A stretch of 45,611 nt of DNA, taken from positions 1-45,611 of the forward strand of contig JAGWSG010000207.1 of assembly GCA_028876335.1 (NCBI GenBank). Direction: 5' to 3'. Below, piece after piece: positions 17,259 to 19,413 of this stretch; the first letter of the stretch is position 1; each line of letters starts with the position of its first letter. The stretch is from Acidobacteriota bacterium (lineage in GTDB: Bacteria > Acidobacteriota > Terriglobia > Terriglobales > Acidobacteriaceae). Position numbers and translations under genes: made by a program. The notes beneath the pieces were generated by a model. That model saw nothing but the letters and a program-made list of their open reading frames with translations, was not told where the DNA came from and did not search any database.

Positions 17259-18191
17259 TCATTGTGTGGCGGTTCCAGCTTCGCGCGGATGTGCCCAGGC
17301 ATAGATTGCGCCCAGCCACGAACTTCCCTTTTCAGGCTCTTTTACGTGTGGAATTAACGCCCAAATGCCAATAAAGGCAAGCCCGACTAGATTTGGAAAC
17401 AAAAGTGGCGCCAGCGGAGGTGCTCCATTCACCAGCTTGTCCCAAAGCCCATGGCCCGGTTCAACCAGATTGGCCTGAAGATGAAACCAAAAGCCCAAAA
17501 CACCCACCGCCGCTTGCCCGCACATCACCGCCATGCAGACATCCAGATAGCGCCGGGTTACTTCCATCATTAAAGGAACCAGTAAAAAACCGGTGGCGAA
17601 TGCCGAGGAAATCACCGGTATCCACTCTGTTTTGAGGAAGAACCCGTTGGACGCGTGGTCTGTAAGTGAGAGCAGGAAATTGCCCATAAATCCGCCAAGT
17701 GCAAGAAGAATGACCCATCGAGCCCAATCGGCGGTCCTTGATGCCACCATTCGATTCACTAGAAGCAGGAAACCAAGGCCCGTGTAAGCGAGCGGTGCGG
17801 CAAAAGGCGCAGCATAGGTCAAGCTCTTCAAGGTTCGGTCGAGAAAAAAATGGCTTTCAAGGTGATATAAAACGCCGCCAAGCCCCACCAAAATCGATAG
17901 CCAGCCGACAAGGTAACCAACATCGCGCCAGGCAGCCTCAAAGTGCCACACCCATCGGAGCAAGATGACGGCCGCAAGGGCAAGCGGGGCAACGAGCGAA
18001 AAATAGAGCGGAATAAACTCTGCGGTCTTCGCGAAGTGATTTACCGAGTGCGCAATGAAAATATCGCCGGCGAGGATGGCCAGGTTCGAAGTAACAAAGA
18101 GCTCTATCCATAACTGTGGATCGTGCGCCCATCGCAGCGGTTCGCCGGTTACCAGAGCCTGCATTTGCGCCACAAGACTATTTGCGCGCAT
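17259..18191 (-). CDS. Eight-helix membrane protein paired with octaheme cytochrome c
   Basis: 310 residues with eight predicted transmembrane helices (for instance LAILAGDIFIAH, LVAPLALAAVILL, VGWLSILVGLGGVLYH, FAAPLAYTGLGFLLLV, VILLALGGFMGNFLL, PNLVGLAFIGIWALI). I do not recognise a named family. Histidines sit in or near several helices (His48, 52, 83, 110, 114, 179, 237), which would allow heme b ligation, as in membrane quinol oxidoreductase subunits; this is inference. Its ATG has GGAGAG just upstream and lies 14 bases inside the end of the cytochrome gene, so the two are translationally coupled. It may be the membrane electron-transfer partner of the cytochrome. Confidence 0.75.
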   Translation of the reverse strand: MRANSLVAQMQALVTGEPLRWAHDPQLWIELFVTSNLAILAGDIFIAHSVNHFAKTAEFIPLYFSLVAPLALAAVILLRWVWHFEAAWRDVGYLVGWLSILVGLGGVLYHLESHFFLDRTLKSLTYAAPFAAPLAYTGLGFLLLVNRMVASRTADWARWVILLALGGFMGNFLLSLTDHASNGFFLKTEWIPVISSAFATGFLLVPLMMEVTRRYLDVCMAVMCGQAAVGVLGFWFHLQANLVEPGHGLWDKLVNGAPPLAPLLFPNLVGLAFIGIWALIPHVKEPEKGSSWLGAIYAWAHPREAGTATQ

Positions 18192-19413
18192 GCTCTCTCC
18201 GCAGTTCGGCCGCTTCTTCCTTCAATTCAACTGTCTTTGACAGCAGCTCGTAATTTCCGTGCCACTGCACAAAATCAGCACCGCCCATGAAAGCCCCATG
18301 CTTGCTGGTTCGCCCGTCATAGTGCCACATGTTGAAGTAGGTAAAGTCGATTGTGTGCGTAAAGGGCGGCCCGGTCAGTGTCCCGTCCTTGTGAAGTTCG
18401 TCAACAATCTCCTTCGCGGCCAGAATCTTTTGATTCGTGTTTTCAATCACCTGCTCGGCCTGTGTGTAAACCCGATTGACCAAAGCCGAGGTGTGGCACT
18501 GCTCGCATACCTGTTTCATGTTTGCCTGTGCCTGCAGGTAATTGGGACGCTTGGTGCTGACGGCCGCTGCCAAATACCAGCTCAAGCGTTCAGAGGGATC
18601 ATGGGTCACTTTCAGTCCATTAATGCCGCTCATGTGGCATGTCGCGCATGTGGGGACGAACATATCGCGGGTCGTCAAAGAGTCCGGCGGAGCGTTCAGA
18701 TTCAAGAGATTACGTTGCGCTGCAAACATCACTCCGTGCCTGGACTCGGTGTAGATCTCCAATTGCGAATGATCCGGTCCCATGTGGCATTGCCCGCAGG
18801 TGGAGGGCAGCCGTGCCAACGCTACGGAGCCGGTGTGGCGCGAATGGCACTCTGTGCAGGTTCCGATGGTGCCGTCATCATTGGGTTTCCCAATTGCATG
18901 GCACTTCTCACAGCCTGCAGTAACGGCTGGATGTCCCTCCGGTAACGTAAGCGGATTGGGTGGCCTTTTGGTTCCGCCAGGCTGGTACTTTTCGCTGAAT
19001 GCTACTTCCTCCGGTGTAAGTCCCTTTTCTCCGTGGACCGCTGCCCAGCTTGGCGCCGCGTGGCGGCTGCGCAAGAACTCCTGATACTCCCCTTCATGAC
19101 ACGAACGGCAATTGCCAGCAGTAAGGTGCGCGCTTATTACAAATCCGTGGTGATCGACTTTCTTTTGCCCAGGTGCGGGCTGATGACAGTCCAGGCAGTT
19201 CACGCCCTTCTTTGCATGCTCTGACATCTCATACTCATGCACTACCGCGTATTGCAGCCGTGCATGACATTCCGCGCATCTGCCCGAAGCACGAACAAAA
19301 TCCGCGGTTGGTTGCTGGGTCTCCAACTTGGGACGAGCCCGGTTGATCAGGAAGGCGGAAATAATCAGCGCAAACGCAATGACGACTGCAACAAACACCG
19401 AACGAAACGACAT
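18178..19413 (-). CDS. Membrane-anchored octaheme cytochrome c, hydroxylamine oxidoreductase-like
   Basis: 411 residues from the ATG at 19413 (GAGG about nine bases upstream). A single N-terminal helix (VFVAVVIAFALIISAFLI) would serve as anchor or uncleaved signal. Eight CxxCH sites follow at residues 46, 73, 102, 168, 186, 206, 256 and 303. All are standard CxxCH; no CxxCK active-site heme is present, which argues against NrfA, ONR or OTR. The C-terminal stretch FNMWHYDGRTSKHGAF and DFVQWHGNYEL resembles HAO-family octahemes, though at about 410 residues it is shorter than Nitrosomonas HAO. The reaction, whether oxidation or reduction of a nitrogen compound or plain electron transfer, is undecided. 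The membrane protein gene overlaps its 3' end. Confidence 0.85.
   Translation of the reverse strand: MSFRSVFVAVVIAFALIISAFLINRARPKLETQQPTADFVRASGRCAECHARLQYAVVHEYEMSEHAKKGVNCLDCHQPAPGQKKVDHHGFVISAHLTAGNCRSCHEGEYQEFLRSRHAAPSWAAVHGEKGLTPEEVAFSEKYQPGGTKRPPNPLTLPEGHPAVTAGCEKCHAIGKPNDDGTIGTCTECHSRHTGSVALARLPSTCGQCHMGPDHSQLEIYTESRHGVMFAAQRNLLNLNAPPDSLTTRDMFVPTCATCHMSGINGLKVTHDPSERLSWYLAAAVSTKRPNYLQAQANMKQVCEQCHTSALVNRVYTQAEQVIENTNQKILAAKEIVDELHKDGTLTGPPFTHTIDFTYFNMWHYDGRTSKHGAFMGGADFVQWHGNYELLSKTVELKEEAAELRREHARK

Follow-up and report, generated by a model that had tools for sequence, protein, structure and literature searches.

The window analysed here, a 45,611-nucleotide stretch of DNA from a soil acidobacterium, carries on its minus strand a gene for an octaheme cytochrome c followed by a gene for a membrane protein, the start of the latter lying inside the end of the former. 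An earlier note, made from the sequence alone, had described a cytochrome with eight CxxCH sites and one N-terminal anchor helix, overlapped over 14 bases by a second gene; the 411-aa reading frame and the overlap at 18178-18191 bear out this description. The overlap likely couples the translation of the two genes. The host genome (~3.8 Mb in 236 contigs) holds one copy of the pair, with the following features.

18178..19413, minus strand: 411-aa HAO-superfamily octaheme cytochrome c (ATG at 19413, N-terminal membrane anchor)
18898..18912, minus strand: fourth CxxCH of the cytochrome (residues 168-172), aligned with the HAO CxxCH that we take to be the site of active-site heme 4
18769..18774, minus strand: Asp214-His215, invariant in 26 sequences, aligned with the HAO Asp-His in SGVDHNNWEAY
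18178..18191, minus strand: overlap of both reading frames (14 nt)
17259..18191, minus strand: 310-aa membrane protein with eight helices (N-terminus inside, without a known family)
17742..18128, minus strand: first four-helix half of the membrane protein (residues 22-150; internal duplication)
17328..17741, minus strand: second four-helix half (residues 151-288; internal duplication)
18048..18050, minus strand: invariant His48, periplasmic end of helix 1
17862..17864, minus strand: invariant His110, periplasmic end of helix 3
17655..17657, minus strand: invariant His179, periplasmic end of helix 5
17481..17483, minus strand: invariant His237, periplasmic end of helix 7

An HAO-type octaheme cytochrome

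The cytochrome contains exactly eight CxxCH motifs (heme His 50, 77, 106, 172, 190, 210, 260 and 307) and one N-terminal hydrophobic helix; from this anchor and the c-type hemes we infer that it faces the periplasm. It matches PF13447 in Pfam (E 2e-26), and a PDB profile search built on 26 relatives found IhOCC (4qo5; 9e-61), HAO (3e-39) and HAOr (6h5l; 1e-31). The predicted structure (pLDDT 76, pTM 0.64) has IhOCC as its top Foldseek match (E 1.5e-11, TM 0.73), and only IhOCC, HAO, HAOr and HDH fall below an E value of 1e-3; ONR and NrfA gave no close fold match in the same search (E >0.1). The earlier note had placed the cytochrome in the HAO family and proposed a structural comparison with HAO, which supports that assignment together with the sequence comparison and revealed no mismatch of fold. 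The cytochrome thus combines eight CxxCH motifs, the HAO fold and an Asp-His pair at heme 4, as is characteristic of the superfamily.

Invariant positions in the alignment are the eight heme histidines, nine other histidines and Asp214-His215. Met376, an invariant methionine, stands opposite the only C-terminal histidine of HAOr in the alignment, which did not extend to the HAO C-terminus; by this alignment, the position is probably that of the HAO cross-linking tyrosine, which may be absent from the cytochrome. Tyr388 is also invariant. The cross-linking tyrosine is present in oxidative HAOs and missing in reductive ones, and a recent phylogeny inferred that most HAO-like proteins outside anammox bacteria are reductive (PMC12758564).

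A membrane protein built from two four-helix units

The second gene product, as the earlier note had claimed, is an eight-helix protein: its AlphaFold2 model (pLDDT 90, pTM 0.89) has eight transmembrane segments. No match in Pfam, NCBIfam or the PDB sequences rose above the cut-offs, whether a single sequence or a profile was used. A known fold was likewise rejected, since Foldseek against 350,542 PDB chains gave a best E value of 0.3, with TM at or below ~0.3 among the matches listed. Pfam and the Foldseek search of the PDB showed no kinship with the NrfD/PsrC/DmsC family or fold. None of the 26 members of the membrane-protein family matched cytochrome b, and the profile comparison suggested in the earlier note found the protein unrelated to the cytochrome b of sister loci (hhalign probability 0.1%). 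A NapC/NrfH-type identity was also rejected, as the protein has eight helices and lacks CxxCH, in agreement with the polytopic, non-NapC-type partner that had been proposed.

The two halves of the protein, residues 22-150 and 151-288, are homologous (hhalign 98%, E 8e-14). When compared as hairpins, 1 pairs with 3 and 2 with 4 (scores of 36 and 46, vs 12 or less for column shuffles), and the remaining combinations are unmatched. Because both the halves and the matching hairpins are homologous, we conclude that the protein arose by duplication of a four-helix unit. Seven membrane-near histidines had been pointed out in the earlier note; His48, His110, His179 and His237 are invariant across the 26 homologs, two per half and each near an odd-helix end, whereas the other histidines vary. 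Loop charges, read by the inside-positive rule, place the odd-helix histidine ends outside in 26/26 sequences, and the four histidines therefore lie on the octaheme's side of the membrane.

Four invariant histidines are consistent with bis-His heme b ligation, no more, and none of the heme b families matches the protein. Four histidines on one face could also make a metal site, and a few members show weak matches to Ceramidase and HlyIII. The protein might accordingly be a metal binder, or a transporter or hydrolase, whose link to the cytochrome is not one of electron transfer. We consider this quite unlikely: the Ceramidase and HlyIII matches, which we rejected as an identity, are far below the cut-offs and not family-wide, and the partners of the wider family are two unrelated kinds of redox enzyme, as described below.

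A conserved pair at varying loci

A scan of 84,980 species, using patterns drawn from close relatives, returned 14 loci, all in Acidobacteriota and all with the octaheme directly upstream. The earlier note had called for such a survey across the phylum; an intact membrane protein was found in 14 of 396 acidobacterial genomes, spanning eleven family codes, and always beside an orthologous octaheme, so that co-occurrence is conserved. In total, the intact membrane gene has the octaheme gene directly upstream in 27/27 distinct loci, the window included, with membrane-protein identities of 31-76%; the carriers are mostly metagenome-assembled genomes. The recurrence of the intact pair in 27 distinct loci excludes chance. 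One of the two refuting cases named in the earlier note, a common unrelated transporter found mostly without the cytochrome, was looked for and rejected, as intact orthologs never occur without the octaheme in the genomes searched. Carriage of the pair by plasmids or viruses found no match.

No third gene is common to all pair loci, other shared genes being confined to subclades, and the genes flanking the pair in the window are not shared with other pair loci, except for Ctp in one (L006). These observations point to a two-gene unit that sits in varying places. The two most divergent pairs (L070:9789-11300 and L071:10134-11534) are followed by a third gene; its product, 466-503 aa long, is predicted to have six to nine helices and matches nothing in Pfam. 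In a congener (G345), a remnant (L076:5900-6212) consists of cytochrome residues 1-26 abutting membrane-protein residues 206-291, the outcome expected of a single deletion spanning the two genes. In a tree, a fully supported branch separates the octahemes of the pairs from seven other acidobacterial ones. A mirror-tree correlation of 0.99 was given no weight because it hinges on a single distant pair of loci; for the close clade taken alone, the correlation is 0.57.

Strict one-to-one pairing and gene overlap would also suit a dedicated assembly factor for the octaheme, acting in heme handling or as a folding chaperone. However, NCBIfam and Pfam revealed no heme-lyase family, and the paralogs of the membrane protein belong to operons that encode no CxxCH protein, making this explanation very improbable.

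Sister octahemes, distant paralogs and a proposed role

More distant acidobacterial octahemes suggest what the membrane protein may have replaced. Three of them (L072, L073 and L079), 35-40% identical to the window octaheme, are bordered on one side by genes for Rieske and/or cytochrome b proteins, and on the other by those for an Alginate_exp outer-membrane protein, a tetraheme and a NapA-like protein. These clusters are followed by a NapH-like gene in L073 and by NapG- and NapH-like genes in L079, and in L078 a cytochrome b gene also adjoins the octaheme. The same layout is seen in the nap-Rieske/b-eHao locus of Caldithrix abyssi, whose octaheme is taken as a nitrite reductase, εHao, fed by quinol via a Rieske/cytochrome b complex (PMC5317091). 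In the window lineage, this quinol complex has apparently been replaced by the eight-helix protein. No nap or nrf genes lie beside the pair, whereas the sister clades do have nap. Other octaheme contexts (L074:7007-10471 and L077:5813-9144) feature a membrane protein resembling YwiC, encoded downstream, and a multiheme protein of NapC/NrfH-like type.

The host's own genome was searched by family. It encodes four molybdopterin proteins, three of them named as Nas/formate-dehydrogenase-like, formate dehydrogenase and DMSO-reductase-like, and none of the four attains the NapA cut-off, so a Nap of its own was rejected. The Nas/formate-dehydrogenase-like gene overlaps one for an iron-sulfur/DmsC fusion (L094:2810-6546, in G000:C175). 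Another cluster (L093:3762-9001, in G000:C217) encodes a DmsE/MtrA-type decaheme, then an 864-aa protein that matches nothing in Pfam, along with a NapC-type cytochrome and small cytochromes c, and is a possible outer-membrane electron conduit of the organism.

Such a context raises the idea that the octaheme is mainly an electron-transfer hub, passing quinol electrons received via the membrane protein to other periplasmic or outer-membrane cytochromes. The decaheme beside its 864-aa neighbour and the NapC-type cytochrome favour this idea, as do the outer-membrane protein and tetraheme of the sister clusters. Nevertheless, we judge a hub unlikely, because the catalytic Asp-His pair and the HAO-type fourth heme site are invariant and no electron-acceptor gene is conserved beside the pair.

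A second search with a broader profile found distant members of the membrane family. Seven Acidobacteriaceae genomes carry a paralog of 315-330 aa (one copy cut short), both halves of which align to one and the same part of the profile; the four histidines and an AP..APL motif are kept in 6/6 copies compared, and a profile comparison with the membrane protein gave 96.7% (E 3.7e-10, 239 columns). The paralog operons (L113-L119, L126-L131) encode Gluconate_2-dh3 (two copies tested), a GMC-like protein and a TPP enzyme, some also a cyclase, along with enzymes of central metabolism; the GMC_oxred_N match, obtained on a truncated piece, narrowly missed the cut-off. Gluconate dehydrogenases of the GMC/Gluconate_2-dh3 type normally use a cytochrome c subunit, and the six regions read contained no CxxCH protein. 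Thus, with four-His paralogs in dehydrogenase operons that lack cytochrome c, the family would seem to serve generally as a redox partner in the membrane, and may carry two b hemes. The strongest argument for such a role is that the family is tied to two unrelated redox enzymes. Single four-helix, two-His homologs (L120:1495-1920, 141 aa; L121:1432-1914, 160 aa) are possible relatives of the unit before duplication. More tentatively, and with somewhat less than even confidence, we suggest that the protein founds an unrecognised superfamily of membrane redox carriers, each a duplicated four-helix, two-His unit, linking periplasmic enzymes unrelated in structure (octahemes and GMC flavo-dehydrogenases) to the quinone pool.

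By analogy, electrons would enter the membrane from the GMC partners and leave it toward the Nap-linked sisters, in opposite directions. A paralog that would take electrons from a flavoprotein lends some appeal to reverse flow in the pair itself, in which hydroxylamine or some other donor would give its electrons to the octaheme and the membrane protein would reduce quinone. This direction appears very unlikely, as oxidative HAOs have the cross-linking tyrosine (PMC12758564) and the window cytochrome has an invariant methionine at the probable site.

Our results instead lead us to lean, by a little, toward a model in which the two genes form a self-contained redox module, a likely cofactor-bearing membrane protein linking the quinone pool to an octaheme whose likeliest activity is nitrite or hydroxylamine reduction. 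The octaheme would be a membrane-anchored, periplasm-facing relative of IhOCC and of the eHao-type nitrite reductases. Its partner most likely holds redox cofactors at the periplasmic face by means of the four histidines, probably one bis-His heme b per half; two b hemes would be the simplest reading, and one metal site the alternative. The membrane protein would then relay electrons between octaheme and quinone pool, filling the place that the Rieske/cytochrome b complex occupies beside the sister octahemes. Judging from its relatives, the octaheme would most likely reduce nitrite or hydroxylamine, in respiration or detoxification, with quinol as donor. The lack of a heme b family match, the lack of nap or nrf genes with the pair and the opposite electron flow expected with GMC partners count against this module, as does the difference from bc1-type cytochrome b, which has hemes at both faces, whereas the four histidines here lie near one. 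The earlier note had proposed a different link between an octaheme and the quinone pool, and this idea is strengthened both by the use of Rieske/cytochrome b by sister octahemes in Nap clusters and by the membrane paralogs in gluconate-dehydrogenase/GMC-type operons. The pair is probably a new means by which a periplasmic enzyme exchanges electrons with the quinone pool, and no description of it was found in the literature searched, which comprised open-licence papers only. The pair offers a small, testable system for learning how octaheme cytochromes outside nitrifiers and epsilonproteobacteria are wired to the membrane. With the family also present beside flavo-dehydrogenases, Acidobacteriota, which are among the commonest soil bacteria, would have a general link to quinone that has so far escaped notice.

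Among known systems, IhOCC of Ignicoccus hospitalis (4qo5) is the best sequence and fold match of the cytochrome and has the same heme motifs; it is longer (521 residues vs 411), and the eight-helix protein has no PDB counterpart. IhOCC is reported to be membrane-associated (Parey 2016), like the window cytochrome. The eHao-type systems of Caldithrix abyssi and of the acidobacterial sister loci share the octaheme superfamily and quinone-linked partner genes, but those partners are Rieske, cytochrome b and Nap genes, whereas the window has just one eight-helix protein, an unrelated one, without adjacent Nap genes. HAO (1fgj) and hydrazine dehydrogenase (6hif) share with the cytochrome the fold and the heme 4 region with its Asp-His; in contrast, they are oxidative and soluble, have the cross-linking tyrosine and are accompanied by no such membrane gene. 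Finally, FAD-dependent complexes of the gluconate dehydrogenase type (GMC flavoprotein plus Gluconate_2-dh3) are encoded beside the distant paralog of the membrane protein in some Acidobacteriaceae operons, where a flavoprotein stands in place of the octaheme and the usual cytochrome c subunit is absent.
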